From NCBI GenBank assembly GCA_947650365.1, contig OX393549.1, positions 28,859,209-28,923,208 of the forward strand: DNA of 64,000 nt. Reading direction: 5' to 3'. A program made the position numbers and the translations under genes. Below the pieces are notes generated by a model. It worked only from the letters and a program-made list of their open reading frames with translations. It was not told the DNA's origin and did no database searches. Shown piece after piece: positions 5,031-56,640 of this stretch (position 1 is its first letter; the number at the start of each line of letters is the position of its first letter). Source of the DNA: Chamaelirium japonicum. Taxonomy: Eukaryota; Streptophyta; Magnoliopsida; Liliales; Melanthiaceae.

Positions 5031-8000
5031 TTCACACGATCCATTCTAATTTATTCGTACGATCCATTCTAATTCATTTGTACAATCCATTCGATTTCAT
5101 TTGTACGATCCATTCTTACTCATTCGTATGATCCATTCTAATTCATTCGTACGATCCATTCTAATTCATTTGTACGATCCATTCTAATTCATTCGTACAA
5201 TCCATTCTATTTCATTCGTACGATCCATTCTTACTCATTCGTATGATCCATTCTAATTCATTCGCACGAATGTATCCATTCTAATTCATTCATACAATCC
5301 ATTCTAATTCATTCGCACGAATGGATCATGCGAATGAATTTGAATGGATCGTACGAATGAATTAGAATGGATCGTACGAATGAATTAGAATGGATACATT
5401 CGTGCGAATGAATTAGAATGGATACATTCGTGCGAACGAATTAGAATAGATCGTATGAATGAATTAGAATGGATCCTATGAATGAATTAGAATGGATCGT
5501 GCGAATGAATTAGAATGGATCGTACGAATGAATTAGAATGGATCGTGCTAATGAATTAGAATTGACGAACGAATGAATTAGAATAGATTGTGCGAATGAA
5601 TTAGAATGGATCGTACGAATGAATTAGAATGGATCGTACGAATGAATTAGAATAGATCATACGAATGAGTAAGAATGGATCGTACGAATGAATTAGAATG
5701 GATCGTACGAATGAATTAGAATGGATCGTACGAATAAATTAGAATGGATACATTCGTCCGAATGAATTAGAATGGATCAAACGAATGAGTAAGAATGGAT
5801 CGTACGAATGAAATACAATAGATTGTACGAATGAATTAGAATGGTTCCTACGAATGAATTAGAATGGATCATGTGAAAGAATTAGAATGGATTGTATGAA
5901 TGAATTAGAATGGATCGTATGAATGAATTAGAATGGATCGTGCGAATGAATTCGAATGGATCGTACGAATTCATTCTAATTCATTCATACAATCCATTCT
6001 AATCCTTTCACACGATCCATTCTAATTCATTCGTACGTTCCATTCTAATTCATTAGCACGATCCATGCTAATTCATTTGTTCGTCAATTCTAATTCATTG
6101 GCACGATCCATTCTAATTCATTCGCACGATCCATTCTAATTCATTCATAGGATCCATTCTAATTCATTCATACGATCTATTCTAATTCTTTCACACGAAT
6201 GTAGCCATTCTAATTCATTCGCACGAATGTATCCATTCTAATTCATTCGTACGATCCATTCTAATTCATTCGTACGATCCATTCGAATTCATTCGCACGA
6301 TCCATTCTAATTCATTCATATGATCCATTCTAATTCATTCATACAATCCATTCTAATTCTTTCACATGATCCATTCTAATTCATTCATACGATCCATTCT
6401 AATTCATTCGTACAATCCATTCTATTTCATTCGTACGATCCATTCTTACTCATTCGTATGATCCATTCTAATTCATTCAGATGATCCATTCTAATTCATT
6501 CGTACGATCCATTCTAATTCATTCGTACGATCCATTCTAATTCATTCGCACGAATGAATCCATTCTAGTTCATTCGTACGATCGATTCTAATTCATTCGT
6601 ACAATCCATTCTAATTCAGGATCGTACGAATGGATTAGAATGGATACATTCGTGCGAATGAATTAGAATTGATCGTACGAATGAATTAGAATGGATCGTG
6701 CGAATGAATTAGAATGGATCGTACGAATGAATTAGAATGGATCGTATGAATGAACTAGAATGGATACATTCGTGCGAATGAATTAGAATGGATCGTACGA
6801 ATGAATTAGAATGGATCGTACGAATGAATTAGAATGGATCTTACGAATGAATTAGAATGGATCGTGCGAATGAATTAGAATGGATCGTACGAATGAATTA
6901 GAATGGATACATTCGTGCGAATGAATTAGAATGGATCATACGAATGAGTAAGAATGGATCGTACGAATGAAATAGAATGGATTATACAAATGAATTAGAA
7001 TGGATACATTCGTGCGAATGAATTACAATGGATCATATGTACAAATGAATTAGAATGGATACATTCGTGCGAATGAATTAGAATGGATCGTACGAATGAA
7101 TTAGAATGGATCGTACGAATGAACTAGAATGGATACATTCGTGCGAATGAATTAGAATGGATCGTATGAATGAATTAGAATGGATCGTACGAATGAATTA
7201 GAATGGATCTTATGAATGAATTAGAATGGATCGTACGAATAAATTAAAATGGATCGTATGAATGGTTTATAATGGATACATTCGTGCGAATGAATTATAA
7301 TGGATCGGACGAATGAATTAGAATGGATCGTACGAATAATTAGAATGGATCAAATGAATGAATTAGAATGGTTACATTCATGCGAATGAATTAGAATGGA
7401 TCGTACGAATGGATTAGAATGGATCGTACGAACGGATTAGAATGGATACATTCGTGCGAATGAATTAGAATGGATCATACGTATGAGTAAGAATGGATCG
7501 TACGTATGAAATAGAATGGATTGTACGAATGAATTAGAATGGATCGTGCGAATGAATTTGAATGGATCGTACGAATGAATTAGAATGGATTGTGCTAATG
7601 AATTAGAATTGATCGTACGAATGAAATAGAATGGATTGTATGAATCATATAGAATGGATTGTACGAATGAATTAGAATGGATCGTATGAATGATTTAGAA
7701 TGGATACATTCGTGCGAATGAATTAGAATGGATCATACGAATAAGTAAGAATGGATCGTACGAATGAAATAGTATGGATTGTACGAATGAATTAGAATAG
7801 ATTCGTACGAATGAATTAGAATGGATACATTCGTGCGAATGAATTAGAATGGATCGTACCAATGAGTAAGAATGGATCGTACGAATGAAATAGAATGGAT
7901 TGTGCGAATGAATTAGAATGGATCGTACGAATGAATTAGAATGGATCGTGTGAAAGAATTAGAATGGATTGTATGAATGAATTAGAATAGATCGTATGAA

Positions 8001-8370
8001 TGAATTAGAATGGATCGTACGAATGAATTAGAATGGATCGTACGAATGAATTAGAATGGATCGTACGAATGAATTAGAAAAGATACATTCGTGCGAATGA
8101 ATTAGAATGGATACATTCGTGCGAAAGAATTAGAATAGATCGTATGAATGAATTAGAATGGATCCTATGAATAAATTAGAATGGATCGTGCGAATGAATT
8201 AGAATGGATCTTACGAATGAATTAGAATGGATCGTGCTAATGAATTAGAATTGATCGAACGAATGAATTAGCATGGATCGTGCTAATGAATTAGAATGGA
8301 ACGTACGAATGAATTAGAATGGATCGTGTGAAAGAATTAGAATGGATTGTATGAATGAATTAGAATGAAT

Positions 8371-10767
8371 TCGTACGATCCATTCGAATTCATTCGCACG
8401 ATCCATTCTAATTCATTCATACGATCTATTCTAATTCATTAATTCAATCCATTCTAAATCTTTCACACGATCCATTCTAATTCATTCGTAGGATCCATTC
8501 TAATTCATTCGTACAATCTATTCTATTTCATTCGTACGATCCATTCTTACTCATTCGTATGATCCATTCTAATTCATTCGGACGAATGTATCCATTCTAA
8601 TTCATTCGTACGATCCATTCTAATTCATTCGTACGATCCATTCTAATTCATTCGTCCGATCCATTCTAATTCATTCGCACGAATGTATCCATTCTAATCC
8701 ATTCGTAAGATCCATTCTAATTTATTTGTACGATCCATTCTAATTCATTCGTCCGATCCATTCTAATTCATTCGCACGAATGTATCCATTCTAATTCATT
8801 CGTCCGATCCATTCTAAATCTTTCACACGATCCATTCTAATTCATTCGTAGGATCCATTCTAATTCATTCGTACAATCTATTCTATTTCATTCGTACGAT
8901 CCATTCTTACTCATTCGTATGATCCATTCTAATTCATTCGGACGAATGTATCCATTCTAATTCATTCGTACGATCCATTCTAATTCATACGTAAGATCCA
9001 TTCTAATTCATTCGTACGATCCATTCTAATTCATTCGTACGATCTATTCTAATTCATTCGCACGAATGTATCCATTCTAGTTCATTCGTACGATCCATTC
9101 TAATTCATTCGTACGATCCATTCTAATTCATTCGCACGATCCATTCTAATTCATTCGTACGATCCATTCTAATTCATTCGCACGATCCATTCTAATTCAT
9201 TCGTACGATCCATTCTAATTCATTCGCACGATCTGTTCTTATTCATTCGCACAATCTATTCTAATTCATTCGCACGAATGTATCTATTCTAATTCCTTCG
9301 TACGATCCATTCTAATTCATTCGTACGATCCATTCTAATTCATTCGTACGATCCATTCTAATTCATTCGTATGATCCATTCTAATTAATTCGTATGATCC
9401 ATTCTAATTCATTCGTACGATCCATTCTAATTCATTCATACAATCCATTCTAATTCATTCGCACGAATGTATCCATTCCAATTAATTCGTACGATCCATT
9501 ATAATTCATTCGTATGATCTATTCTTATTCATTCGCACGATCCAGTCTAATTGATTCGCACGATCCATTCTAATTCATTCGCACAAATGTATCCATTCTA
9601 ATTCATTCGTACGATCCATTCTAATTCATTAATATGATCCATTCTAATTCATTCGTACTATCCATTCTAATTCATATGCACAAAGGTATCCATTCTAATC
9701 CATTCGTAGGATCCATTCTAATCCATTCGTACGATCCATTCTAATTCATTCGTACGATCCATTCTAATTCATTCGCTCGAATGTATCCATTCTAATCCAT
9801 TCGTACGATCCATTCTAATCCATTCGTACGATCCATTCTAATTCATTCGTACAATCCATTCTATTTCATTCGTACGATCCATTCTAATTCATTCGTACGA
9901 TCCATTCTAATTCATTCGTATGATCCATTCTAATTAATTCGTATCATCCATTCTAATTCATTCGTACGATCCATTCTAATTCATTCGTACGATCCATTCT
10001 AATTCATTCGTACGATCCATTCTAATTCATTCGCACAAATGTATCCATTCTAATTCATTCATACGATCCATTCTAATTCATTCGTACGATCCATTCTAAT
10101 TCATTCGTAAGATCCATTCTAATTCATTCGTACGATCCATTCTAATTCATTCGCACGAATGTATCCATTCTAGTTCATTCGTACGATCCATTCTAATTCA
10201 TTCATACAATCCATTCTAATTCATTCGCACGAATGTATCCATTCTAATTCATTCGTACGATCAGTTCTAATTCATTCACAAAATCTATTCTAATTCATTC
10301 ATACGATCCATTCTAATTCATTCACACGAATGTATCCATTCTAATTCATTCATACGATCCATTCTAATTCATTCGTACGATCTATTCTAATTCACACATA
10401 CGATCCATTCTAATACATTCATACGATCCATTCTAATTCATTTGCATGAATATATCCATTCTAATTCATTCTTACGATCCATTCTAATTCATTCGTACGA
10501 TCTATTCTAATTCATTCGTACGATCCATTCTAATTCATTCGTACGATCCATTCTATTTCCTTCGTACGATCCATTCTAATTCCTTCGTACGATCCATTTT
10601 AATTCATTCATACAATCCATTCTAATTCTTTCACACGATCCATTCTAATTCATTCGTACGATCCATTCTAATTCATTCGTGCAATCCAATCTATTTCATT
10701 CGTACGATCCATTGTTATTCATTCGTACGATCCATTCTAATTCATTCACACGAATGTATCCATTCGT
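8371..10767 (+). repeat. Plus-oriented satellite block
   Basis: A continuous run of plus monomers. It opens at a GAATTC-type switch and closes at CCATTCGTACGAATG. It includes the marker CATATGCACAAAGGTATCC near 9663, which recurs near 21770, 27049, 31383 and 50045, and a near-duplicate of 13040-13678 at about 10137-10767. Within it, the stretch from about 8452 to 8600 is repeated at about 8815-8960 (CTAAATC followed by the CGGACGAATG unit). Confidence 0.9.
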
Positions 10768-12755
10768 ACGAATGAATTAGAATAGATTGTACGAATGAAT
10801 TAGAATGAATCGTACGAATGAATTAGAATGGATCGTACGAAGGAATTAGAATGGATCGTACGAATGAATTAGAATGGATCATACGAATGAATTAGAATAG
10901 ATCGTACGAATGAATTAGAATGGATCGTATGAAGGAATTAGAATGGATCGTACGAATGAATTAGAATGGATATATTCGTGCAAATGAATTAGAATGGATC
11001 GTATGAATGTCTTAGAATGGATCGTATGAGTGAATTAGAATGGATCGTACGAATGAATAAGAATGTATCGTATGAATGAATTAGAATGGATACATTCGTG
11101 CGAATGAATTAGAATTGATCGTACGAATGAATTAGAATGGATCGTGCGAATGAATTAGAATGGATCGTACGAATGAATTAGAATGGATCGTACGAATGAA
11201 CTAGAATGGATACATTCGTGCGAATGAATTAGAATGGATCGTACGAATGAATTAGAATGGATCGTACGAATGAATTAGAATGGATCTTACGAATGAATTA
11301 GAATGGATCGTACGAATGAATTAGAATGGATACATTCGTGCGAATGAATTAGAATGGATCGGACGAATGAATTAGAATGGATCATACGAATGAATTAGAA
11401 TGGATACATTCGTGCGAATGAATTAGAATGGATCGGACGGATGAATTAGAATGGATCGTACGAATGAATTAGAATGGATCGTACAAATGAATTAGAAAGG
11501 ATCGTATGAATAAATTAGAATGGATACATTCGTCCGAATGAATTAGAATGGATCATACGAATAAGTAAGAATGGATCGTACGAATGAAATAGAATAGATT
11601 GTACGAATGAATTAGACTGGATCCTACGAATGAATTAGAATGGATCGTGCGAATGAGTTAGAATGGATTGTATGAATGAATTAAAATGGATCGTACGAAT
11701 GAATTAGAATGGATCAAACGAATTAATTAGAATGGATCATACGAATGTTTTAGAATGGATCGTACGAATGAATTAGAATTGAATCGTACAAATGAATTAG
11801 AATGCATCGTACGAATGAATTAGAATGGATCGTGCTAATGAATTAGAATTGATCGAACGAATGAATTAGAATGGATCGTGTGAAAGAATTAGAATGGATT
11901 GTATGAATGAATTAGAATAGATCGTATGAATGAATTAGAATGGATCGTATGAATGAATTAGAATGGATCGTACGAATGAATTAGAATGGATCGTACGAAT
12001 GAATTAGAATGGATACATTCGTGCGAATGAATTAGAATGGATACATTCGTGCGAAAGAATTAGAATAGATCGTATGAATGAATTAGAATGGGTCCAATGA
12101 ATCAATTAGAATGGATCGTGCGAATGAATTAGAATGGATCGTACGAATGAATTAGAATGGATCGTGCTAATGAATTAGAATTGATCGAACGAATGAATTA
12201 GAATGGATACATTCGTGCGAATGAATTAGAATGAATCGTACGAAGGAATTAGAATGGATCGTACGAATGAATTAGAATGGATATATTCGTGCAAATGAAT
12301 TAGAATGGATCGTATGAATGTATTAGAATGGATCGTATGAGTGAATTAGAATGGATCGTACGAATGAATTAGAATGGATCGTATGAATGAATTAGAATGG
12401 ATACATTCGTGTGAATGAATTAGAATGGATCGTATGACTGAATTAGAATAGATTTTGTGAATGAATTAGAACTGATCGTACGAATGAATTAGAATAGATA
12501 CATTCGTGCGAATGAATTAAAATGGATTGTATGAATGAATTAGAATGGATCCTATGAATGAATTAGAATGGATCGTGCGAATGAATTAGAATGGATAGTA
12601 CGAATGAATTAGAATGGATCGTGCTAATGAATTAGAATTGATCGAACGAATGAATTAGCATGGATCGTGCTAATGAATTAGAATGGAACGTACGAATGAA
12701 TTAGAATGGATCGTGTGAAAGAATTAGAATGGATTGTATGAATGAATTAGACTAA
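10768..12755 (-). repeat. Minus-oriented satellite block
   Basis: A continuous minus run beginning with the recurring start GAATTAGAATAGATTGTACG and rich in variants such as CGAAGGAATTAG, GTGTGAAAGAATTAG and GTGCTAATGAATTAG. The same variant series recurs in other minus blocks (15149-17354, 39400-40650, 53000-53600), so these blocks are copies of a shared ancestral segment. Confidence 0.9.
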
Positions 12756-14294
12756 ATTCGTACGATCCATTCTAATTCACTCATACGATCCATTCTTATT
12801 CATTCATACAATCCATTCTAATTCTTTCACACGATCCATTCTAATTCATTCGTAGGATCCATTCTAATTCATTCGTACAATCTATTCTATTTCATTCGTA
12901 CGATCCATTCTTACTTATTCGTATGATCCATTCTAATTCATTCGGACGAATGTATCTATTCTAATTTATTCGTACGATCTATTCTAATTCATTCGTACGA
13001 TCCATTCTAATTCATTTGTACGATCCATTCTAATTCATTCGCACGAATGTATCCGTTCTAGTTCATTCGTACGATCCATTCTAATTCATTCATACAATCC
13101 ATTCTAATTCATTCGCACGAATGTATCCATTCTAATTCATTCGTACGATCAGTTCTAATTAATTCACAAAATCTATTCTAATTCATTTATACGATCCATT
13201 CTAATTCATTCACACGAATGTATCCATTCTAATTCATTCATACGATCCATTCTAATTCATTCGTACGATCCATTCTAATTCACTCATACGATCCATTCTA
13301 ATACATTCATACGATCCATTCTAATTCATTTGCAAGAATATATCCATTCTAATTCATTCGTACGATCCATTCTAATTCCTTCGTACGATCCATTCTAATT
13401 CAGTCGTACGATCTATTCTAATTCATTCGTACGATCCATTCTAATTTATTCATACGATCCATTCTAATTCCTTCGTACGATCCATTCTAATTCATTCGTA
13501 CGATCCATTCTAATTCATTCATACGATCCATTCTAATTCATTCACACGATCCATTCTAATTCATTGGTACGATCCATTCTAATTCATTCGTGCAATCCAT
13601 TCTATTTCATTCGTACGATCCATTCTTACTCATTCGTACGATCCATTCTAATTCATTCACACGAATGTATCCATTCGTACGAGTGAATTAGAATAGATTG
13701 TACGAATGAATTAGAATGGATCGTACGAATGAATTAGAATGGATCGTACGAAGGAATTAGAACGGATCGTACGAATGAATTAGAATGGATCGTATGAATG
13801 AATTAGGAATAGATCGTACGAATGAATTAGAATGGATCGTACGAAGGAATTAGAATGGATCGTACGAATGAATTAGACTGGATCGTACGAATGAATTTGA
13901 ATGGATACATTTGTGCGAATGAATCTAAATGGATTGTATGAATGAATTACAATGGATCGTACGAATGAATTAGAATGGATCGTACGAATGAATTAGAATA
14001 GCTCATACAAAAAAATTAGAATGAATCGTATGAATGAATTAGAACGGTTACATTCGTGCGAATGAATTAGAATAGATCGTACGAATGAATTAGAATGGAT
14101 CGTATGAATAAATTAGAATGGATCGTGGGAATGAATTAGAATGGATCGTACGAATGAATTAGAATGGATCCACCGAATGAGTTAGAATGGATCATACGAA
14201 TGAATTAGAATGGATTGTACGAATGAATTAGAATGGATTGTGCGAATGAATTAGAATGGATCGTATGAATGAATAACAATGGATCGTACGAATG

Positions 14295-14770
14295 AATTAG
14301 AATGGATCGTGCGAATGAATTAGCATGAATCGTACGAATGTATTAGAATGGATCGTACGAATGAATTAGAATGAATCGTACGATCCATTCTAATTCAATC
14401 GTCCGATCCATTCTAATTCATTCGCATGAATGTATCCATTCTAATTCATTCGTACAATCCATTCTATTTCATTCGTACGATCCATTCTTACTCATTCGTA
14501 TGATCCATTCTAATTCATTCGTACGATCCATTCTAATTCATTCGTACGATCCATTCTAATTCATTCGCACGATCCATTCTAATTCATTCATACGATCCAT
14601 TCTAATTCATTCCTACAATCCATATTAATTCATTCGCCCGATCCATTCTAATTCATTCATACGATCCATTCTATTCGAATGGATCATGCGATCCATTCGA
14701 ATTCATTCGCCCGATCCATTCTAATTCATTCATACGATCCATTCTAATTCATTCATACAATGCATTCTAA
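14295..14770. repeat. Duplicated satellite segment, family A copy 2
   Basis: Copy of 4530-5030 and of 62867-63340, with the same switch (GAATGAATCGTACGATCC at about 14380) and the same inverted repeat at 14674. It departs from the other copies after ATACAATGCATTC at about 14770. Confidence 0.8.
14674..14701. repeat. Short inverted repeat, CATGCG loop
   Basis: Perfect 11-bp arms TTCGAATGGAT and ATCCATTCGAA around CATGCG. It is the same element as at 4930-4957. Confidence 0.85.
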
Positions 14771-15148
14771 TTCATTCATACGATCCATTCTAATTCATTT
14801 GCACGAATATATCCATTCTAATTCATTCGTACGATCCATTCTAATTCCTTCGTACGATCCATTCTAATTCATTCGTACGATCTATTCTAATTCATTCGTA
14901 CGATCCATTCTAATTCATTCGTACGAGCCATTCTAATTCCTTCGTACGATCCATTCTAATTCCTTCGTACGATCCATTCTAATTCATTCATACAATCCAT
15001 TCTAATTCTTTCACACGATCCATTCTAATTCATTCGTACGATCCATTCTAATTCATTCGTGCAATCCATTCTATTTCATTCGTACGAGCCATTCTTACTC
15101 ATTCGTACGATCCATTCTAATTCATTCACACGAATGTATCCATTCGTA

Positions 15149-17354
15149 CGAATGAATTAGAATAGATTGTACGAATGACTTAGAATGGATCGTACGAATG
15201 AATTAGAATGGATCGTACGAAGGAATTAGAATGGATCGTACGAATGAATTAGAATAGATCGTATGAATGAATTAGAATGGATCGTACGAAGGAATTAGAA
15301 TGGATCGTACGAGTGAATTAGAATGGATATATTCGTGCAAATGAATTAGAATGGATCGTATGAATGTATTAGAATGGATCGTATGAGTGAATTAGAATGG
15401 ATCGTACGAATGAATTAGAATGGATCGTATTAATGAATTAGAATGGATACATTCGTGCGAATGAACTAGAATTGATCGTACGAATGAATTAGAATGGATC
15501 GTGCGAATGAATTAGAATGGATCGTACGAATGAATTAGAATAGATCGTACGAATGAACTAGAATGGATACATTCGTGCGAATGAATTAGAATGGATCGTA
15601 CGAATGAATTAGAATGGATCGTACGAATGAATTAGAATGGATCTTACGAATGAATTAGAATGGATCGTACGAATGAATTAGAATGGATCGTACGAATGAA
15701 TTAGAATGGATACATTCGTGCGAATGAATTAGAATGGATCGGACGAATGAATTAGAATGGATCGTACGAATGAATTAGAATAGATCAAATGAATGAATTA
15801 GAATGGTTACATTTATGCGAATGAATTAGAATGGATCGTACGAATGGATTAGAATGGATCGTACGAATGGATTAGAATGGATACATTCGAGCGAATGAAT
15901 TAGAATGGATCGTACGAATGAATTAGAATGGATCGTACGAATGGATTAGAATAGATCCTACGAATGGATTAGAATGGATACCTTTGTGCATATGAATTAT
16001 AATGGATCATACGAATGAATTAGAATGGATCATATTAATGAATTAGAATGGATCGTACGAATGAATTAGAATGGATACATTCGTGCGAATGAATTAGAAT
16101 GGATCGTGCGAATCCATTAGACTGGATCGTGCGAATGAATAAGAATGGATCATACGAATGAATTAGAATGGATCGTACGAATTAATTAGAATGGATACAT
16201 TTGTACGAATGAATTAGAATGGATTGTATGAATGAATTAGAATGGATCGTACGAATGAATTAGAATGGATCATACGAATTAATTAGAATGGATAATACGA
16301 ATGAATTAGAATGGATCGTACGAATGAATTAGAATGGATCGTACGAATGAACTAGAATGGATCGTACGAATGAACTAGAATGGATACATTCGTGCGAATG
16401 AATTAGAATGGATCGTATGAATGAATTAGAATGGATCGTACGAATGAATTCGAATGGATCTTACGAATGAATTAGAATGGATCGTTCGAATGAATTAGAA
16501 TGGATCGTACGAATAAATTAGAATGGATACATTCGTGCGAATGAATTAGAATGGATCGGACAAATGAATTAGAATGGATCGTACGAATGAATTAGAATGG
16601 ATCAAATGAATGAATTAGAATGGTTACATTCATGCGAATGAATTTGAATGGATCGTACGAATGGATTAGAATGGATCGTACTAATGGATTAGAATGGAAA
16701 CATTCGTGCGAATGAATTAGAATGGATTGTATGAATGAATTAGAATGGATCGTACGAATGAATTACAATGGATCGTATGAGTGAATTAAAATGGATACGA
16801 AGGAATTAGAATGGATCGTACGAAGGAACTAGAATGGATCATACGAATGAAATAGAATGGATCGTACGAAGGAAATAGAATGGATCGTACGAAGGAATTA
16901 GAATGGATCGTACAAAGGAATTAGAATGGATCGTACGAATGAATTAGAATAGATATATTCATGCAAATGAATTAGAATGGATCGTATGAATGAATTAGAA
17001 TGGATCGTATGAGTGAATTAGAACGGATAGTACGAATGAAGTAGAATGGATCGTATGAATGAATTAGAATGGATACATTCGTGCGAATGAATTAGAATGG
17101 ATCGTATGAATGAATTAGAATAGATTGTGCGAATGAATTAGAATGGATCGTACGAATGAATTAGAATGGATACATTCGTGCGAATAAATTAGAATGGATT
17201 GTATGAATGAATTAGAATGGATCGTACGAATGAATTAGAATGGATTGTACGAATGAATTGGAATAGATTGCGCGAATGAATTAGAATGGATCGTGCGAAT
17301 GAAATAGAATGGATACAAATGAATTAGAATGGATCATACGAATAAATTAGAATG
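15149..17354 (-). repeat. Minus-oriented satellite block
   Basis: A minus run with many 28-bp units. From about 16990 to the end it resembles about 33990-34360: both carry GAACGGATAGTACG followed by GAAGTAGAATGG. Near 16790-16920 there is a cluster of CGAAGGAA-type monomers, also found at 45835-45970. Confidence 0.88.
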
Positions 17355-18697
17355 ATGATCCATTCTTACTCATTCGTATGATCCATTCTTATTTATTCGC
17401 ATGAATGTATCCATTCTAATTCATTCGTACGTCTAATTCATTCGTACGGTCCATTCTAATTCATTCGCACAATCCATTCTATTTCATTCGTACGATCCAT
17501 TCTTACTCATTCGTATGATCCATTATGGATACATTCGTGCGAATGAATTAGAATGGATCATACGAATGAGTAAGAATGGATCGTACGAATGAAATAGAAT
17601 GGATTGTGCGAATGAATTAGAATGGATCGTACGAATGAATTAGAATGGATCGTGTAAAAGAATTAGAATGGATTGTATGAATGAATTAGAATAGATCGTA
17701 TGAATGAATTAGAATGGATCGTACGAATGAATTAGAATGGATCGTACGAATGAATTAGAATGGATCGTACGAATGAATTAGAATGGATACATTCGTGCGA
17801 ATGAATTAAAATGGATACATTCATGCGAAAGAATTAGAATAGATCGTATGAATGAATTAGAATGGATCCTATAAATGAATTAGAATGGATCGTGCGAATG
17901 AATTAGAATGGATCTTACGAATGAATTAGAATGGATCGTGCTAATGAATTAGAATTGATCGAACGAATGAATTAGCATGGATCGTGCTAATGAATTAGAA
18001 TGGAAAGTACGAATGAATTAGAATGGATCGTGTGAGAATTAGAATGGATTGTATGAATGAATTAGAATGAATTCGTACGATCCATTCGAATTCATTCGCA
18101 CGATCTATTCTAATTCATTCATACGATCCATTCTAATTCATTCATACAATCCATTCTAATTCTTTCACACGATCCATTCTAATTCGTTCGTTGGATCCAT
18201 TCTAATTCATTCGTACAATCTATTCTATTTCATTCGTACGATCCATTCTTACTCATTTGTATGATCCATTCTAATTCATTCGGACGAATGTATCCATTCT
18301 AATTTATTCGTACGATCCATTCTAATTCATTCGTACGATCCATTCTAATTCATTCGTACGATCCATTCTTACTCATTCGTATGATCCATTCTAATTCATT
18401 CGTACGATCCATTCTAATTCATTCGTACGATCGATTCGAATTCATTCGCACTATCCATTCTAATTCATTCGTACGATCCATTCTAATTCATTCGTATGAT
18501 CCATTCTAATTTATTCGTTCAAATATATCCATTCGAATTCATTCGTACGATCCATTCTAATTCATTCGCACGATCCATTCTAATTCATTCGCAAGAATGT
18601 ATCCATTCTAATTCATTTGCACGATCCATTCTAATTCATTCTAATTCATTCGTACGATCCATTCTAATTCATTCGTATATTCGATTTTAATTCTATA
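17355..18697. repeat. Satellite segment leading into the gene fragment
   Basis: Plus at 17355-17523, minus at 17524-18070, plus at 18071-18697. The three switches fall in the same order at 34361, 34513 and 35039, so this is a copy of the 34.4-35.7-kb segment at about 17.0 kb spacing. The last unit, CGTATATTCGATTTTAATTC, is a decayed monomer. Its closest relative is CGTATATTCCATTCTAATTC near 35730. Confidence 0.85.
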
Positions 18698-18707
18698 GGT
18701 CCCCTAG

Positions 18708-18990
18708 ATTCGTGGACATTGGCTCCGACTCTGAGTCCTTCAGCTCGGAGTCGGAGGCCAAAGGGGCTAGGGCGGACCCTCCGAGCCCGCCAGCAGCCGG
18801 AGCTCGCCCAGGAGAGGCGCCACCCCCCACTCCTTCTCCCGGCGTGCCGCCTCCAACCGACGCTCCGGGGGGTCCCAGCGCGGGCTCCTCTGCGGAGGAG
18901 GGGAGGGCGCCCTACTACGTGCGGCAGCTGCTGGGCCGCAACGTCTTCGTCCGAGCCCCCTTCGCTTCCATAAGCGAACGCCTGGCCGAG
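18708..18990 (+). CDS. Exon 1 of gene fragment (partial): acidic-serine then Pro/Ala-rich region
   Basis: Read in the frame of TTC at 18709, the exon encodes 94 residues. Residues 1-17 are rich in Ser, Asp and Glu (DSESFSSESE). Residues about 21-64 are a low-complexity Pro/Ala/Gly/Ser stretch, probably disordered. Residues about 69-94 form a more ordered segment (YYVRQLLGRNVFVRAPF, then SISERLAE) that leads into the coiled coil of exon 2. The exon ends CTGGCCGAG and is followed by GT, a good donor. The 5' limit is set by the acceptor-like CCTAG at 18703-18707. A GTG at 18712 lies in frame but there is no reason to take it as a start in a nuclear gene. Third codon positions are mostly G or C. 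Confidence 0.7.
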
Positions 18991-19062
18991 GTACCTCTTG
19001 CCCTCTCTGCCCTTACGCCAAAAATGTTAATTCTCGCTAACTTTTTCATCTTCCTTATGTAG
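18991..19062 (+). other. 72-bp spliceosomal intron, phase 0
   Basis: It begins GTACCTCTTG and ends CTTCCTTATGTAG. A CTAAC motif at 19037-19041 sits about 21 bases before the acceptor and matches the plant branch-site pattern CTRAY. It is followed by the T-rich run CTTTTTCATCTTCCTT. The second half of the intron is much more AT-rich than the exons. Reading straight through from exon 1 hits a stop at the end of the intron (TAG at 19060-19062). Removing it joins GAG to GCG in frame. All of this is visible in the sequence; splicing itself is inferred. Confidence 0.8.
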
Positions 19063-19368
19063 GCGGAGAAACAGAGCCAGGCGCTGGCCGCTGGGGCCGG
19101 GAAGGCGTTGGCCGCCTTGTTCGATGATTCCCTTTGGGGGTCTGAGCGCAAGGTGGACGAGCACATCCACGAGCTCCAGCGGGCTTCACATGCCGTGGCT
19201 CTGAAAGAGGCGGAGGAGCTTCGGCAGAGGGTCGCGACCCTGGTGTCGGGCATGGCCGAGCTGGAGGCGTCCCAGCTCAAGTCCTCCGACGACCTCAAAA
19301 AGGCCGTGGCGGAGCGGGACGAGGCCGTCACTGCCAGAGAGGCCGCTAGGAAGGAGTTGTACGAATGA
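19063..19368 (+). CDS. Exon 2 of gene fragment: Ala/Glu-rich coiled coil, cut off by satellite
   Basis: It encodes 101 residues. Residues 1-20 (AEKQSQALAAGAGKALAALF) are Ala-rich, followed by DDSLWGSERKVDEH. From about residue 25 to the end there is heptad-like spacing of Leu, Val, Ala and Met among Glu, Lys and Arg, typical of a coiled coil. The last codons are AAG GAG TTG TAC GAA followed by TGA at 19366-19368. The bases from about 19359 (GTACGAATGAATTAG) already match the satellite, so the final two residues and the stop come from the repeat. The native protein almost certainly continued. A long opposite-strand frame over this exon is a by-product of GC-rich codon use. Confidence 0.7.
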   Translation, partial: AEKQSQALAAGAGKALAALFDDSLWGSERKVDEHIHELQRASHAVALKEAEELRQRVATLVSGMAELEASQLKSSDDLKKAVAERDEAVTAREAARKELYE

Positions 19369-21378
19369 ATTAGAATGGATCGTATGAATGAATTAGAATG
19401 GATCGTGTGAAAGAATTAGAATGCATTGTATGAATGAATTAGAATGGATCGTATGAATGAATTAGAATGGATCGTGCGAATGAATTTGAATGGATCGCAT
19501 GATCCATTCGAATAGAATGGATCGTATGAATGAATTAGAATGGATCGGGCGAATGAATTAGAATGGATTGTAGGAATGAATTAGAATGGATCGTATGAAT
19601 AAATTAGAATGGATCGTGCGAATGAATTAGAATGGATCGTATGAATGAATTAGAATGGATCGTACGAATGAATTAGAATGGATCATACGAATGAATTAGA
19701 ATGGATCATACGAATGATTAAGAATGGATCGTACGAATGAAATAGAATGGATTGTACGAATGAATTAGAATGGATACATTCATGCGAATGAATTAGAATG
19801 GATCGGACGATTGAATTAGAATGGATCGTATGATTCATTCTAATTCATTCGTACGATCCATTCTAATACATTCGTACGATTCATGCTAATCCATTCGCAC
19901 GATCCATTCTAATTCATTCGTATGATCCATTCTTATTCATTCATACGATCCATTCTAATTCATTCGCACAATCCATTCTAATTCATTCGTACAATCCATT
20001 CTAATTCATTCGTATGATCCATTCTAACTCATTCGGTGGATCCATTCTAATTCATTCGTACGATCCATTCTAATTCATTCCCACGATCCATTCTAATTTA
20101 TTCGTACGATCCATTCTAATTCATTCGTACGATCTATTCTAATTCATTCGCACGAATGTAACCATTCTAATTCATTCATACGATTCATTCTAATTCATTC
20201 GTATGAGCTATTCTAATTCATTCGTACGATCCATTCTAATTCATTCGTACGATCCATTGTAATTCATTCATACAATCTATTTAGATTCATTCGCACAAAT
20301 GTATCCATTCAAATTCATTCGTACGATCTAGTCTAATTCATTCGTATGATCCATTCTAATTCCTTCGTACGATCCATTCTAATTCATTCGTATGATCTAT
20401 TCTAATTCATTCGTACGATCCATTCTAATTCATTCGTACGATCCATTCTAATTCCTTCGTACGATCCATTCTAATTCATTCGTACGATCCATTCTAATTC
20501 ATTCGTACAATCTATTCTAATTCATTCGTACGAATGGATACATTCGTGTGAATGAATTAGAATGGATTGTACGAATGAGTAAGAATGGATCGTACGAATG
20601 AAATAGAATGGATTGCACGAATGAATTAGAATGGATCGTACGAATGAATTAGAATGGATCGTGTGAAAGAATTAGAATGGATTGTATGAATGAATTAGAA
20701 TGGATCGTACGAATGAATTAGAATGGATTGTACGAAGGAATTAGAATGGATCGTACGAATGAATTAGAATAGATCGTACGAATGAATTAGAATGGATCGT
20801 ACGAAGGAATTAGAATGGATCGTACGAATGAATTAGAATGGATATATTCATGCAAATGAATTAGAATGGATCGTATGAATGTATTAGAATGGATCGTATG
20901 AGTGAATTAGAATGGATCGTACGAATGAATTAGAATGGATCGTATGAATGAATTAGAATGGATACATTCGTGTGAATGAATTAGAATGGATCGTATGAAT
21001 GAATTAGAATAGATTTTGTGAATGAATTAGAACTGATCGTACGAATGAATTAGAATGGATACATTCGTGCGAATGAATTAGAATGGATTGTATGAATGAA
21101 TTAGAATGGATCGTACGAATGAACTAGAATGGATACATTCGTGTGAATGAATTAGAATGGATCATACGAATGAATTAGAATGGATCGTACGAATGAATTA
21201 GAATGGATCTTACGAATGAATTAGAATGGATCATATGAATGAATTAGAATGGATCGTACGAATGAATTAGAATGGATACATTCGTGCGAATGAATTAGAA
21301 TGGATCGGATGAATGAATTAGAATGGATCGTACGAATGAATTAGAATGGATCGTATGAATGAATTAGAATGGATCGTA
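19359..21378. repeat. Satellite segment right of the gene fragment
   Basis: Minus at 19359-19831, plus at 19832-20531, minus at 20532-21378. The minus stretch from the junction through the CGCATG palindrome at 19485-19512 matches about 53545-53980 and 59430-59900, which lack the gene fragment. From the GATTCATTC unit at 19832 to ATTGTAATTC at 20256 is 424 bp, exactly the spacing found at 41817-42241 and 53977-54401. Confidence 0.88.
19485..19512. repeat. Short inverted repeat, GCAT loop
   Basis: Arms TTTGAATGGATC and GATCCATTCGAA (one mismatch) surround GCAT. It marks a paired strand flip inside a minus block. The same structure, with perfect arms, occurs at 53653-53680 and 59554-59581. Confidence 0.85.
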
Positions 21379-21902
21379 CGATCCATTCTAGTTCATTCGT
21401 ACGATCCATTCTAGTTCATTCGTACGATCCATTCTAATTCATTCGTACGATCCATTCTAATTCATTCGTATAATCCATTCTAATTAGTTCGTATGATCCA
21501 TTCTAATTCATTCGTACGATCCATTCTAATTCATTTATACAATCCATTCTAATTCATTCGCACGAATGTTTCCATTCTAATTAATTCGTACGATCCATTC
21601 TAATTCATTCGTATGATCCATTCTTATTCATTCGCACGATCCAGTCTAATGTATTCGCACGATCAATTCTAATTCATTCGCACGAATGTATCCATTCTAA
21701 TTAATTCGTATGATCCATTCTAATTCATTAATATGATCCATTCTAATTCATTCGTACGATCCATTCTAATTCATATGCACAAAGGTATCCATTCTAATCC
21801 ATTCATAGGATCCATTCTAATCCATTCGTACGATCCATTCTAATTCATTCGTACGATCCATTCTAATTCATTCGCTCTAATGTATCCATTCTAATCCATT
21901 CG

Positions 21903-22535
21903 TACGATCCATTCTAATCCATTCGTACGATCCATTCTAATTCATTCGCATGAATGTAACCATTCTAATTCATTCATTTGATCCATTCTAATTCATTCGT
22001 ACGATCCATTCTAATTCATTCGTACGATCCATTCTAATTTATTCGCTCGAATGTATCCATTCTAATCCATTCGTACGATCCATTCTAATCCATTCGTACG
22101 ATCCATTCTAATTCATTCGCATGAATGTAACCATTCTAATTCATTCATTTGATCCATTCTAATTCATTCGTATGATCCATTCTAATTCATTCGTAAGATC
22201 CATTCTAATTCTTTCGTATGATCCATTCTAATTCATTCGTACGATCCATTCTAATTCATTCGTAAGATCCATTCTAATTCATTCGTACGATCCATTCTAA
22301 TTCATTCGTACGATCCATTCTAATTCATTCGCACGAATGTATCCATTCTAGTTCATTCGTACGATCCATTCTAATTCATTCGTACGATCCATTCTAATTC
22401 ATTCGCACGATCCATTCAAATTCATTCGTACGATCCATTCTAATTCATTCATACGATCCATTCTAATTCATTCGTACGATCCATTCTAATTCATTCGCAC
22501 AAATGTATCCATTCTAATTCATTCGTACGATCCAT
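21903..22535 (+). repeat. Satellite duplication of about 630 bp, copy 1
   Basis: Matches 22738-23370 at a constant offset of 835 bp (for example the unit ATTCTAATTTATTCGCTCG at 22031 and 22866). I saw no difference in the main part of the overlap, so the duplication is recent. Confidence 0.85.
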
Positions 22536-22737
22536 TCGAATTCATTCGCACGATCCATTCTAATTCATTCGTACGATCTATTCTAATTCATTCGTACGAT
22601 CCATTCTAATTCATTCGTACAATCTATTCTATTTCATTCGTACGATCCATTTTTACTCATTCGTATGATCCATTCTAATTCATTCGGACGAATGTATCCA
22701 TTCTAATTTATTCGTACGATCCATTCTAATTCATTCG

Positions 22738-23370
22738 TACGATCCATTCTAATCCATTCGTACGATCCATTCTAATTCATTCGCATGAATGTAACCATTC
22801 TAATTCATTCATTTGATCCATTCTAATTCATTCGTACGATCCATTCTAATTCATTCGTACGATCCATTCTAATTTATTCGCTCGAATGTATCCATTCTAA
22901 TCCATTCGTACGATCCATTCTAATCCATTCGTACGATCCATTCTAATTCATTCGCATGAATGTAACCATTCTAATTCATTCATTTGATCCATTCTAATTC
23001 ATTCGTATGATCCATTCTAATTCATTCGTAAGATCCATTCTAATTCTTTCGTATGATCCATTCTAATTCATTCGTACGATCCATTCTAATTCATTCGTAA
23101 GATCCATTCTAATTCATTCGTACGATCCATTCTAATTCATTCGTACGATCCATTCTAATTCATTCGCACGAATGTATCCATTCTAGTTCATTCGTACGAT
23201 CCATTCTAATTCATTCGTACGATCCATTCTAATTCATTCGCACGATCCATTCAAATTCATTCGTACGATCCATTCTAATTCATTCATACGATCCATTCTA
23301 ATTCATTCGTACGATCCATTCTAATTCATTCGCACAAATGTATCCATTCTAATTCATTCGTACGATCCAT
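22738..23370 (+). repeat. Satellite duplication of about 630 bp, copy 2
   Basis: Second copy of 21903-22535. About 200 bp of CGGACGAATG-containing satellite separate the two copies. Confidence 0.85.
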
Positions 23371-23570
23371 TCTAATTCATTCGCACAAATGTATCCATTC
23401 TAATTCATTCGTACGATCCATTCTAATTCATTCGCACGATCCATTCTAATTCATTCGTACGATCCATTCTAATTCATTCATACGATCCATTCTAATTCAT
23501 TCGTACGATCCATTCTAATTCATTCGCACGATCCATTCTAATTCATTCATACAATCCATTCTAATTCTTT

Positions 23571-26500
23571 CACACGATCTATTCTAATTCATTCGTAGGA
23601 TCCATTCAAATTCCTTCGTACAATCTATTCTATTTCATTCGTACGATCCATTCTTACTCATTCGTATGATCCATTCTACTTCATTCGGACGAATGTATCC
23701 ATTCTAATTTATTCGTACGATCCATTCTAATTCATTCGTACGATCCATTCTAATTCATTCATATGATCCATTCAAATTCATTCGTATGATCTATTCTTAT
23801 TCATTCGCACGATCCAGTCTAATTGATTCGCACGATCCATTCTAATTCATTCGCACGAATGTATCCATTCTAATTCATTCGTACTTTCCATTCTAATTCA
23901 TTAATATGATCCATTCTAATTCATTCGTACGATCCATTCGAATTCATTCGTAGGATCCATTCTAATTCATTCGTACAATCTATTCTATTTCATTCGTACG
24001 ATCCATTCTTACTCATTCGTATGATCCATTCTAATTCATTCGGACGAATGTATCCCTTCTAATTTATTCGTACGATCCATTCTAATTCATTCGTACGATC
24101 CATTCTAATTCATTCGTAAGATCCATTCTAATTCATTCGTACGATCCATTCTAATTCATTCGTACGATCCATTCTAATTCATTCGTACGATCCATTCTAA
24201 TTCATTCATACGATCTATTCTAATTCATTCATACAATCCATTCTAATTCTTTCACATGATCCATTCTAATTCATTCGTACGATCCATTCTAATTCATTCG
24301 TACGATCCATTCTAATTCATTCGTACAATCCATTCTAATTCTTTCACACGATCCATTCTAATTCATTCGTAGGATCCATTCTAATTCATTCGTATAATGA
24401 GTAGGAATGGATCGTACGAATGAAATAGAATGATTGTACGAATGATTTAGAATGGATACATTCGTAGGATCCATTCTAATTCATTCGTACGATCCATTCT
24501 AATTCATTTGTACGATTCAATTCTAATTCATTCATACGATCCATTCTAATTCATTTGTATGATCCATTCTAATTAATTCGTATGATCCATTCTAATTCAT
24601 TCGTACGATCCATTCTAATTCATTCATACAATCCATTCTAATTCATTTGCACGATCCATTCTAATTCACTCATACGATCCATTCTAATACATTCATACGA
24701 TCCATTCTAATTCATTTGAACGAATATATCCATTCTAATTCATTCGTACGATCCATTCTAATTCCTTCGTATGATCCATTCTAATTCATTCGTACGATCC
24801 ATTCTAATTCATTCATACGATCCATTCTAATTCATTCGTACGATCCATTCTAATTCATTCGCACAAATGTATCCATTCTAATTCATTCGTACGATCCATT
24901 CTAATTCATTCGTACGATCCATTCTAATTCATTCGCACGAATGTATCCATTCTTGTTCATTCGTACGATCCATTCTAATTCATTCATACGATCCATTCTA
25001 ATTCATTCGCACGATCCATTCTAATTCATTCGTACGATCCGTTCTAATTCATTCATACGATCCATTCTAATTCATTCGTACGATCCATTCTAATTCATTC
25101 GCACAGATGTATCCATTCTAATTCATTCGTACGATCCATTCTAATTCATTCGCACGATCCATTCTAATTCATTCGTACGATCCATTCTAATTCATTCGCA
25201 CGATCTGTTCTTATTCATTCGCACAATCCATTCTAATTCATTCGCACGAATGTATCCATTCTAATTCATTCGTACGATCCATTCTAATTCATTCGTACGA
25301 TCCATTCTAATTCATTCGTATGATCCATTCTAATTAATTCGTATGATCCATTCTAATTCACTCATACGAATCATTCTAATACATTCATACGATCCATTCT
25401 AATTCATTTGCACGAATATATCCATTCTAATTCATTCGTACGATCCATTCTAATTCATTTGTACGATCCATTCTAATTCATTCGTACGATCCATTCTAAA
25501 TCATTCATACGATCTATTCTAATTCATTCATACAATCCATTCTAATTCTTTCACACGATCCATTCTAATTCATTCGTACGATCCATTCTAATTCATTCGC
25601 ACAATCCATTCTATTTTATTCGTACGATCCATTCTTACTCGTTCGTATGATCCATTCTAATTCATTCGCACGAATGTATCCATAATGGATCATACGAATG
25701 AGTAAGAATGGATCGTACGAATGAAATAGAATGGATTGTGCGAATGAATTAGAATGGACCGTACGAATGAATTAGACGTACGAATGAATTAGAATGGATA
25801 CATTCGTGTGAATAAATTAGAATGGATCATACGAATGAGTAAGAATGGATCATCATTCTAATTCATTCGTATGATCCATTCTAATTCATTTGTATCCAAT
25901 CTATTTCATTCGCACGATCCATTCTAATTCATTCGCGCAATCTATTCTAATTCATTCGTACGATCCATTCTAATTCATTCATACAATCCATTCTAATTTA
26001 TTCGCACGAATGTATCCATTCTAATTCATTCGTACGATCCATTCTAATTCATTCGCATAATCTATTCTAATTCATTCATACGATCCATTCTAATTCATTC
26101 GCACGAATGTATCTATTCTAATTCATTCATATGATCCATTCTACTTCATTCGTACTATCCGTTCTAATTCACTCATACGATCCATTCTAATTCATTCATA
26201 CGATCCATTCTAATTCATTTGCACGAATATATCCATTCTAATTCATTCGTACGATCTATTCTAATTCCTTCGTACAATCCATTCTAATTCCTTCGTACGA
26301 TCCATTCTATTTCATTCGTATGATCCATTCTAATTCCTTCGTATCCATTCTAATTCACTCATACGATCCATTCTAATTCATTCGTACGATCCATTCTAAT
26401 TCATTCATACAATCCATTCTAATACATTCGCATGAATGTATCCATTCTAATCCATTCGTACGATCCATTCTAATCCATTCGTATGATCCATTCTAATTCA

Positions 26501-27725
26501 TTCGCATGAATGTAACCATTCTAATTCATTCATTTGATCTATTCAAATTCATTCGTACGATCCATTCTAATTCATTCGTCCGACCCATTCTACTTCATTC
26601 GCACGAATGTATCCATTCTAATTCATTCGTACGATCCATTCTAATTCATTCGTACGATCCATTCTAATTCATTCGTAAGATCCATTCTAATTCATTCGTA
26701 CGATCCATTCTAATTCATTCATACGATCCATTCTAATTCATTCGCGCGAATGTATCCATTCTAGTTCATTCGTACGATCCATTCTTGTTCATTCGTACGA
26801 TCCATTGTAATTCATTCGTACGATCCATTCTAATTCATTCGTATGATCCATTCTAATTAATTCGTATGATCCATTCTAATTCATTCGTACGATCCATTCT
26901 ATTTCATTCATACAATCCATTCTAATTCATTCGCATGAATGTATCCATACTAATTAATTCGTACGATCCATTCTAATTCATTCGTACGATCCATTCTAAT
27001 TCATTAATATGATCCATTCTAATTCATTCGTACGATCCATTCTAATTCATATGCACAAAGGTATCCATTCTAATCCATTCGTAGGATCCATTCTAATCCA
27101 TTCGTACGATCCATTCTAATTCATTCGTACGATCCATTCTAATTCATTTGCTCGAATGTATCCATTCTAATCAATTCGTACCATCCATTCTAATCCATTC
27201 GTATGATCCATTCTAATTCATTCGCATGAATGTGACCATTCTAATTCATTCATTTGACCCATTCTAATTCATTCGTACGATCCATTCTAATTCATTCGTC
27301 CGATCCATTCTAATTCATTCGCACGAATGTATCCATTCTAGTTCATTCGTACGATCCTTTCTAATTCATTCGTACGATCCATTCTAATTCATTCGCACGA
27401 TCCATTCTAATTCATTCGTACGATCCATTCTAATTCATTCGTACGATCCATTCTAATTCATTCGCACAAATGTATCCATTCTAATTCATTCGTACGATCC
27501 ATTCTAATTCATTCGCACGATCCATTCTAATTCATTCGTACGATCCATTCTAATTCATTCGTACGATCCATTCTAATTCATTCATACGATCCATTCTAAT
27601 GCATTCGTACGATCAATTCTAATTCATTCGCACAAATGTATCCATTCTGATTCATTCGTACGATCCATTCTAATTCATTCGCACGATCCATTCTAATTCA
27701 TTCATACAATCCATTCTAATTTTTT
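23571..27725 (+). repeat. Higher-order repeat unit, copy 1 (about 4.16 kb)
   Basis: The start is set at CACACGATCTATTC at 23571, which recurs at 27726 and 32418. Ordered markers inside: CGAATTCATTCGTAGG (about 23938), minus islet AATGAGTAGGAATGG (about 24396), CCATAATGGATC switch (about 25681), CTTCGTATCCATTC (about 26338), CATATGCACAAAGG (about 27049). The same order is found in copy 2. Confidence 0.82.
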
Positions 27726-30700
27726 CACACGATCTATTCTAATTCATTCGTAGGATCCATTCTAATTCATTCATACAATCTATTCTATTTCATTCGTACG
27801 ATCCATTCTTACTCATTCGTATGATCCATTCTACTTCATTCGGACGAATGTATCCATTCTAATTTATTCGTACGATCCATTCTAATTCATTCATATGATC
27901 CATTCTAATTCATTCGTATGATCTATTCTTATTCATTCGCACGATCCAGTCTAATTGATTCGCACGATCCATTCTAATTCATTCGCACGAATGTATCCAT
28001 TCTAATTCATTCGTACGATCCATTCTAATTCATTAATATGATCCATTCTAATTCATTCGTACGACCCAATCGAATTCATTCGTAGGATCCATTCTAATTC
28101 ATTCGTACAATCTATTCTATTTCATTCGTACGATCCATTCTTACTCATTCGTATGATCCGTTCTAATTCATTCGGACGAATGTATCCATTCTAATTTATT
28201 CGTACGATCCCTTCTAATTCATTCGTACGATCCATTCTAATTCATTCGTAAGATCCATTCTAATTCATTCGTGCGATCCATTCTAATTCATTCGTACGAT
28301 CCATTCTAATTCATTCGTACGATCCATTCTAATTCATTCATACGATCTATTTTAATTCATTCATACAATCCATTCTAATTCTTTCACACGATCCATTCTA
28401 ATTCATTCGTACGATCCATTCTAATTCATTCGTACGATCCATTCTAATTCATTCGTACAATCTATTCTAATTCTTTCACACGATCCATTCTAATTCATTC
28501 GTAGGATCCATTCTAATTCATTCGTACAATGAGTAAGAATGGATCGTACGAATGAAATAGAATGATTGTATGAATGATTTAGAATGGATACATTCGTAGG
28601 ATCCATTCTAATTCATTCGTACGATCCATTCTAATTCATTCGTACGATTCAATTCTAATTCATTCGTACGATCCATTCTAATTCATTCGTATGATCCATT
28701 CTAATTAATTTGTATGATCCATTCTAATTCATTCGTGCGATCCATTCTAATTCATTCATACAATCCATTCTAATTCATTCGCACGATCCATTCTAATTCA
28801 CTCATACGATCCATTCTAAAACATTCATACGATCCATTCTAATTCATTTGCACGAATATATCCATTCTAATTCATTCATACGATCCATTCTAATTCCTTC
28901 GTACGATCCATTCTAAATCATTCGTACGATCCATTCTAATTCATTCATACGATCCATTCTAATTCATTCTTACGATCCATTCTAATTCATTCGCACAATT
29001 GTATCCATTCTAATTCATTCGTACGATCCATTCTAATTCATTCGTACGATCCATTCTAATTCATTCGTAAGATCCATTCTAATTCATTCGTACGATCCAT
29101 TCTAATTCATTCGTACGATCCATTCTAATTCATTCGCACGAATGTATCCATTCTAGTTCATTCGTACGATCCATTCTAATTCATTCGTACGATCCATTCT
29201 AATTCATTCGCACGATCCATTCTAATTCATTCGTACGATCCATTCTAATTCATTCATACGATCCATTCTAATTCATTCGTACGATCCATTCTAATTCATT
29301 TGCACAAATGTATCCATTCTAATTCATTCGTACGATCCGTTCTAATTCATTCGCACGATCCATTCTAATTCATTCGTACGATCCATTCTAATTCATTCGC
29401 ACGATCTGTTCTTATTCATTCGCACAATCCATTCTAATTCATTCGCACGAATGTATCCATTCTAATTCATTCGTACGATCCATTCTAATTCATTCGTACG
29501 ATCCATTCTAATTCATTCGTATGATCCATTCTAATTAATTCTTATGATCCATTCTAATTCACTCATACGATCCATTCCAATACATTCATACGATCCATTC
29601 TAATTCATTTGCACGAAGATATCCATTCTAATTCATTCGTACGATCCATTCTAATTCATTCGTACGATCCATTCTAATTCATTCGTACGATCCATTCTAA
29701 TTCATTCATACGATCTATTCTAATTCATTCATACAATCCATTCTAATTCTTTCACACGATCCATTCTAATTCATTCGTACGATCCATTCTAATTTATTCG
29801 CACAATCCATAATGGATCATACGAATGAGTAAGAATGGATCGTACGAATGAAATAGAAAGGATTGTGCGAATGAATTAGAATGGACCGTACGAATGAATT
29901 AGACGTACGAATGAATTAGAATGGATACATTCGTGCGAATAAATTAGAATGGATCATACGAATGAGTAAGAATGGATCATCATTCTAATTCATTCGTATG
30001 ATCCATTCTAATTCATTTGTATCTATTCTATTTCATTCGCACGATCCATTCTAATTCATTCGCGCAATCTATTCTAATTCATTCGTACGATCCATTCTAA
30101 TTCATTCGTACGATCCATTCTAATTCATTCATACAATCCATTCTAATTTATTCGCACGAATGTATCCATTCTAATTCATTCGTACGATCCATTCTAATTC
30201 ATTCGCACAATCTATTCTAATTCATTCATACGATCCATTCTAATTCATTTGCACGAATGTATCCATTCTAATTCATTCATACGATCCATTCTACTTCATT
30301 CGTACTATCCGTTCTAAATCACTCATACGATCCATTCTAATTCATTCATACGATCCATTCTAATTCATTTGCACGAATATATCCATTCTAATTCATTCGT
30401 ACGATCCATTCTAATTCCTTCGTACGATCCATTCTAATTCCTTCGTACGATCCATTCTAATTCCTTCGTACGATACATTCTATTTCATTCGTATGATCCA
30501 TTCTAATTCCTTCATACGATCCATTCTAATTCCTTCGTATCCATTCTAATTCACTCATACGATCCATTCTAATTCATTCGTACGATCCATTCTAATTCAT
30601 TCATACAATCCATTCTAATTCATTCGCACGAATGTATCCATTCTAATCCATTCGTACGATCCATTCTAATCCATTCGTACGATCCATTCTAATTCATTCG

Positions 30701-32417: not shown

Positions 32418-33150
32418 CACACGATCTATTCTAATTCATTCGTAGGATCTATTCTAATTCATTCGTACGATCCATTCTTACTCATTCGTATGATCCATTC
32501 TACTTCATTCGGACGAATGTATCCATTCAAATTTATTCGTACGATCCATTCTAATTCATTCGTACGATCCATTCTAATTCATTCATATGATCCATTCTAA
32601 TTCATTCGTATGATCTATTCTTATTCATTCGCACGATCCAGTCTAATTGATTCGCACGATCCATTCTAATTCATTCGCACGAATGTATCCATTCTAATTC
32701 ATTCGTACGATCCATTCTAGTTCATTAATATGATCCATTCTAATTCATTCGTACGATCCATTCGAATTCATTCGTAGGATCCATTCTAATTCATTCGTAC
32801 AATCTATTCTATTTCATCCGTACGATCCATTCTTACTCATTCGTATGATCCATTCTAATTCATTCGGACGAATGTATCCATTCTAATTCATTCGTACGAT
32901 CCATTCTAATTCATTCGTAAGATCCATTCTAATTCATTCGTACGATCCATTCTAATTCATTCGTACGATCCATTCTAATTCATTCGTACGATCCATTCTA
33001 ATTCATTCATACAATCCATTCTAATTGTTTCACACGATCCATTCTAATTCATTCGTACGATCCATTCTAATTCATTCGTACAATCCATTCTAATTCTTTC
33101 ACACGATCCATTCTAATTCATTCGTAGGATCCATTCTAATTCATTCGTAC
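32418..33150 (+). repeat. Higher-order repeat unit, copy 3 (partial)
   Basis: It begins with the same CACACGATCTATTC marker and runs to the AATGAGTAAGAATGG switch at 33150. Where copies 1 and 2 return to plus after about 70 bp, this copy continues in minus orientation into the next domain. The 51.1-kb region shows the same continuation. Confidence 0.78.
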
Positions 33151-42241: not shown

Positions 42242-42489
42242 TTGTAATTCATTCATACAATCCATTTAGATTCATTCGCACAAATGTATCCATTCAAATT
42301 CATTCGTACGATCCAGTCTAATTCATTCGTACGATCCATTCTAATTCATTCGCACGAATATATCCATTCTAATTCTTTCGTACGATGCATTCTAATTCAT
42401 TTGTACAATCCATTCTAATTCATTCGTACGATCCATTCTAATTCATTCGTACGATCCATTCTAATTCATTCGCACGAATGTATCCACTC

Positions 42490-56633: not shown

Positions 56634-56640
56634 ATCATAC

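Follow-up and report, generated by a model that had tools for sequence, protein, structure and literature searches.

A coding-like fragment, cut at both ends, at an orientation switch in a Chio-like satellite array of Chamaelirium japonicum

Results

A single GC-rich island in a satellite array

We examined a 64,000-nucleotide stretch of the Chamaelirium japonicum genome (assembly GCA_947650365.1, contig OX393549.1, positions 28,859,209 to 28,923,208), hereafter the window. The whole window consisted of one tandem repeat with a period of 23 bp plus a 28-bp variant, and a GC-rich island was the sole exception (Table 1). Painting of the window with the 8-mers of the 23-bp consensus, with one mismatch allowed, left 342 stretches uncovered; the longest two lay in the island (18694-18945, 252 bp, and 18955-19356, 402 bp), and the next longest measured 11 bp. 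Satellite resemblance reached position 18693 and started again at about 19357. A preliminary description of this DNA had placed a single GC-rich island in pure satellite at 18698-19365; its uniqueness was borne out, as was its location, with both ends a few bases off (18694 to about 19356). A BLAST search of the island against the window returned the island itself and a 14-bp chance match only. The GC content was 0.697 over 18694-18990, 0.417 over 18991-19062 and 0.657 over 19063-19365.

Table 1. Features of the window.
Feature	Position	Strand	Description
23/28-bp satellite array	1..64000	.	69 alternating-orientation blocks, island excepted; fits Chio1/Chio2 as published
Left flanking satellite block	18074..18693	-	Minus orientation of consensus GAATTAGAATGGATCGTACGAAT; exact words 18074-18677, similarity to 18693
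Non-satellite GC-rich island	18694..19356 (end approximate)	+	Coding-like, cut at both ends; no satellite k-mers; single copy
Exon-like open stretch 1	18694..18990	+	Acidic/Ser start, Pro/Ala/Gly/Ser-rich (57%), short block ahead of donor
Intron candidate	18991..19062	+	72 bp, GT...CTAAC...TAG, phase 0; from motifs and composition
Exon-like open stretch 2	19063..19365	+	Long predicted helix; GC3 0.83; open frame
Right flanking satellite block	19357..19830	+	Plus orientation; exact words 19359-19830

The satellite fits the Chio centromeric repeat

Analysis of the distances between successive repeats revealed that 23 bp was the commonest on both strands (460 of 871 and 386 of 719), while 28 bp was seen 63 and 48 times. 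An exact 23-mer, ATTCGTACGATCCATTCTAATTC, was present in 331 + 256 copies and an exact 28-mer, ATTCGCACGAATGTATCCATTCTAATTC, in 34 + 37 copies; ATGTA and one T/C are the only differences between the two. The string TTCGTACGA occurred 557 + 444 times and the palindrome TCGTACGA 999 times. The holocentric plant Chionographis japonica carries two CENH3-bound repeats, the 23-bp Chio1 and the 28-bp Chio2, which are distinguished by a 5-bp deletion and a single substitution and have 8-bp dyad symmetry, with forward and reverse arrays mixed, as set out in the available part of Kuo et al. 2023 (PMC10264360). TTCGTACGA is common to the Chio and Chama satellites (PMC12722358), and array orientation alternates often in the Chio satellite (PMC12722358 and the available part of PMC10264360). 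The window shares with Chio1/Chio2 a dominant 23-bp and a minor 28-bp monomer separated by a 5-bp indel and one substitution, together with TTCGTACGA, an 8-bp dyad and alternating array orientation, a likeness drawn by described features rather than letter by letter because the letters of the published monomers stand in a figure. By these features the satellite fits a Chio-type centromeric satellite, with putative CENH3 binding in the window; this match is not recognised in the preliminary description. Six core strings of the satellite had no match in the literature text, and the identity came from the described features instead. There were 0 matches for a 39-mer of the satellite in viral contigs and 0 for the satellite in bacterial and archaeal genome contigs, both collections in which plants are not expected.

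Orientation blocks were counted only if they had at least 16 supporting bases. Ordinary switches between the 69 blocks in 64 kb mostly took place within 0-20 bp, often close to the palindromic core. Short plus blocks within minus satellite were found in pairs (24405-24457 with 28536-28589, and 25684-25851 with 29811-29978) at a spacing of about 4.13 kb, which suggests a tandem duplication of about 4.1 kb inside the array. The stretch 19359-21377, which includes the right flank, had an inverted copy 42 kb away at 63402-61384 with 97.1% identity over 2,024 aligned columns, more alike than the other copies among the matches listed. This copy may reflect a long-range inverted exchange within the array.

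The island sits at an orientation switch

The island sits between the left minus block and the right plus block, that is, at a switch in array orientation. As 68 switches were spread over about 63.3 kb, the post hoc chance of such a position was 0.03 for within 15 bp of a switch and 0.01 for within 5 bp. At least seven further satellite copies aligned from 19359/19360 (among the best 30 of 44 matches), and look-alikes of the flanks elsewhere ran on as satellite beyond the join. The 35 bp compared at each junction had no direct repeat of at least 5 bp in common, and the island showed neither a terminal repeat nor a target-site duplication. Inverted matches at the junctions were at most 6 bp long and lay mostly inside the satellite itself.

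Two candidate empty sites, near positions 5.3 kb and 43.3 kb of the window, carried look-alikes of both flanks that kept their order and direction and were separated by 268 and 428 bp of satellite. Random flank pairs used as controls gave at least one such pair in 100/134 cases and at least two in 87/134; opposite-orientation pairs did so in 181/195 and 162/195 cases, and 32/195 passed a stricter rule. As the controls gave as many pairs or more, the candidates support nothing. In the set of 195, the random flanks (450 bp) had on average about 122 and 89 look-alikes compared with 35 and 53 for the flanks of the island (500 bp), so that this comparison has little power either way.

Open frames and an intron candidate in a truncated fragment

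The frame from 18691 was open up to a TAG at 19060-19062, and then up to a TGA at 19366-19368. The intron candidate has the donor GAG/GTACCT and the acceptor TATGTAG/GC, with CTAAC at 19037-19041, its A lying 22 nt before the end, and a T content of 39% compared with 15% in the exons. Since 72 is divisible by 3, both exons stand in one genomic frame whether spliced or unspliced, with a single stop between them that belongs to the acceptor (TAG); frame continuity is thus no independent support for splicing. The candidate is supported by the drop in GC, the rise in T and the motifs. The two open stretches and the well-formed GT-AG intron candidate of the preliminary description agree with frame, motifs and composition as they appear in the DNA.

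At such high GC, a run of 200 codons without a stop is no great rarity: among 5000 Markov-1 sequences it arose in a given frame in 1.4% and in any of six frames in 10.5%. The GC content by codon position was 0.71/0.43/0.83 in exon 2, and only a fraction of 0.0002 of 5000 Markov sequences reached the contrast of the joined exons. Exon 1 alone had a weak contrast (0.69/0.68/0.73); it is exon 2 that carries the coding signal. Coding frames usually follow a GC3>GC1>GC2 pattern. On the minus strand, an antisense frame of 166 codons was open from 18915 to 19415, across the island into the satellite. Over exon 2 this frame departed from the coding pattern (GC1 0.42, GC2 0.71, GC3 0.84), and it had no match in Pfam.

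The first in-frame methionine came not before residue 163 of 200. The upstream stop, a TAA at 18688-18690, sits in the satellite, the downstream TGA is itself satellite, and satellite resemblance already covers the final three codons (19357-19365), so that the fragment has neither an early in-frame start nor a stop of its own. Taken together with the lack of terminal repeats, this makes the island a fragment, neither a complete gene nor a complete transposon. It appears to be a leftover of genome rearrangement and not a functioning gene, presumably with no present protein function. The absence of stops had been taken to imply a recent or still functional copy; this is not supported, given how often stop-free frames arise at such GC and the missing start and stop.

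The encoded protein and the search for relatives

The exon 1 protein was 57% Pro/Ala/Gly/Ser and the exon 2 protein 35% Glu/Lys/Arg/Asp. An AlphaFold2 model of exon 2 from the single sequence predicted helices at residues 2-19 and 28-100 (mean pLDDT 82.7, pTM 0.44). A heptad test of exon 2 was not significant (P = 0.26, 0.12 and 0.14); with this result and a single-sequence model, the helix is described here as coiled-coil-like only.

The spliced protein of 201 amino acids was compared with 5.8 billion proteins, in searches that require shared 5-residue words, and no relative at E <= 10 was found among 4027 scored candidates. Residues 75-201, searched over a wider length range, likewise had no relative at E <= 10 among the best 7995 candidates by shared words. 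The RuBisCO small subunit, used as a control, gave 793 hits at 1e-40; most names among the best 120 listed were of land plants, and no Liliales name was noticed among these 120. The predicted two-exon protein thus had no homologue at E <= 10 among the scored candidates of a collection holding plant proteins. As the control was rich in plant proteins, the source is unlikely to be a plant gene of broad conservation; it may be one that evolves fast or is restricted to the lineage.

Nothing scored above the Pfam cut-offs (spliced protein at E <= 1, exons at E <= 10), and Transposase_28, the plant mobile domain, Athila ORF-1, gag, pol and LTR had no Pfam match in the fragment. A Pfam match to Mating_N (E 0.0089; 16.5 bits, cut-off 21.4) was rejected as low complexity, as were the other sub-threshold matches to Serine_rich, Mating_N, TraC (exon 2) and DEC-1_N (read-through frame). 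All NCBIfam matches were under the cut-off and were set aside for the same reason, together with a PDB match to Mediator subunit 19 over the Pro/Ala-rich stretch (0.0083) and two others (0.77). Rfam gave 0 matches. A search of viral contigs with the protein found 41 stretches that fitted a pattern, with 0 confirmed, and a search of bacterial and archaeal genome contigs with exon 2 found 596, again with 0 confirmed; plants are not expected in either collection.

Discussion

Origin of the island

The reading we favour, with a probability of roughly 45%, is that the island is a fragment of an accessory gene that evolves fast and belongs to a Tat-clade LTR retrotransposon, an origin suggested by architecture alone. 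Its source would be the linker and the coiled-coil-like part of an antisense accessory ORF of a Retand- or Ogre-like element. In favour of this reading we counted the Pro/Ala/Gly/Ser-rich stretch followed by the predicted helix 28-100 of exon 2, the coding-like GC of exon 2, the GC and T contrast of the intron candidate, the lack of relatives, the truncation at both ends without a direct repeat at the junctions, and the position at an orientation switch. Counted against it were the lack of a Pfam element domain, the non-significant heptads, the pTM of 0.44, the empty-site comparison, which lent no support, and the Chama arrays of the sister genus, which are reported to be free of retrotransposons (PMC12722358).

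Names such as Smc, DNA topoisomerase 2, TolA and polIII gamma/tau are typical of coiled-coil and Pro/Ala-rich regions. Regions so named are sometimes carried by the Retand antisense ORFs (PMC11963269), which sit between pol and the 3' LTR and mostly have TRP28 (PMC11963269 and PMC7264820, in the text available from each). The extra ORFs of plant LTR elements are highly heterogeneous, with 314 similarity groups in Ty3/gypsy and any CDD domain in 21.4%, according to the available text of PMC6317226. No intron is reported for the Retand/Tat antisense ORFs in the parts of PMC11963269 and PMC7264820 at hand, where the word appears 0 times. If the source gene ran antisense to the element RNA, its intron would be present there as the reverse complement and unspliced, and by this reasoning would survive retrotransposition. 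An antisense source therefore means that intron retention cannot tell DNA-level from RNA-level transfer, and the earlier argument that a kept intron implies DNA-level capture does not follow for such a source.

Somewhat less favoured is an ordinary host gene, lineage-specific or fast-evolving, of which a fragment was captured at the DNA level by break repair or interlocus exchange and is now non-functional; we regard this as possible though doubtful. The coding-like frame and the intron candidate speak for it, and so does a CpG observed/expected ratio of 0.85, which indicates little methylation decay, although the Chio repeats and TEs of C. japonica are reported rich in mCpG (PMC10264360, available part). 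Against it stands the lack of a relative at E <= 10 among the 4027 and the best 7995 candidates from a plant-containing collection, although the 5-residue-word requirement, the scope of the best 7995 and the absence of Liliales from the best 120 control matches mean that a lineage-specific gene could be missed. Of the 'host-gene fragment' of the preliminary description, a coding-like fragment with an intron candidate, embedded in satellite and cut at both ends, holds, while its host-gene origin is disfavoured.

It is improbable that the piece was carried by a DNA transposon or Helitron, by Pack-MULE-like or Helitron capture with loss of the ends. Such elements do carry intron-bearing gene pieces (PMC7264820, available text), but the junctions have no direct repeat of at least 5 bp and only the short, mostly satellite-internal inverted matches, and Kuo et al. 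judged Helitron dispersal of Chio arrays unlikely (PMC10264360, available part). Still less likely is a GC-rich sequence that codes for nothing and owes its frame and its intron-like motifs to chance: open frames come easily at this GC, the antisense frame is likewise open, and the island had no relatives in the searches, but chance would have to supply the codon-position contrast of exon 2 and the joined exons, a change in GC and T that is abrupt exactly between GT and AG, and a well-placed CTAAC, and the antisense frame lacks the coding pattern over exon 2. An assembly artefact, with satellite reads misjoined around an unrelated fragment, would fit an island exactly between opposite-orientation blocks but is very improbable, since the other orientation switches (68 in all, one being the island's own) occur without foreign DNA and Chio arrays have been described as alternating in orientation (PMC12722358 and the available part of PMC10264360).

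Significance

It is well known that satellite arrays can harbour pieces of genes and transposons, and the fragment by itself is ordinary. If the retrotransposon reading is true, the island would serve as one traceable landmark within a holocentromere array that is otherwise uniform, and its source copy would reveal the way in which foreign DNA gets into Chio arrays and whether break repair gives rise to orientation switches. The source copy would also bear on how Chio arrays expand and spread, which Kuo et al. state as an open question (PMC10264360, available part). We give hardly any credence to a further idea, in which the island would be transcribed and spliced within a CENH3-bearing array, and rare islets of this kind would mark or seed array turns and so help to keep or spread holocentric centromere units.

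Comparison with known systems

The island resembles the Retand/Tat aORF-3R in combining Pro/Ala-rich and helical regions, as in a fast-evolving protein of plant elements (PMC11963269 and PMC7264820, in the text available). A linker followed by a helix is a common trait rather than a defining one, and in the island it consists of the modelled helix 28-100 of exon 2, with a non-significant heptad contrast. The island differs in having neither TRP28 nor an LTR/pol context, so that the relation is one of resemblance and not of membership. Transposase_28 (PF04195) was not found by Pfam in the fragment, which may end short of the domain; only satellite flanks the island in the window, and the fragment is too short to include a pol/3' LTR neighbourhood.

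As for the route of insertion, we infer break repair: a double-strand break in the array may have been mended with the island as filler DNA, at an existing orientation switch or creating one. The island is like the filler DNA of plant double-strand break repair (PMC8395108) in that foreign DNA, free of terminal repeats, would lie between the two ends of a break.
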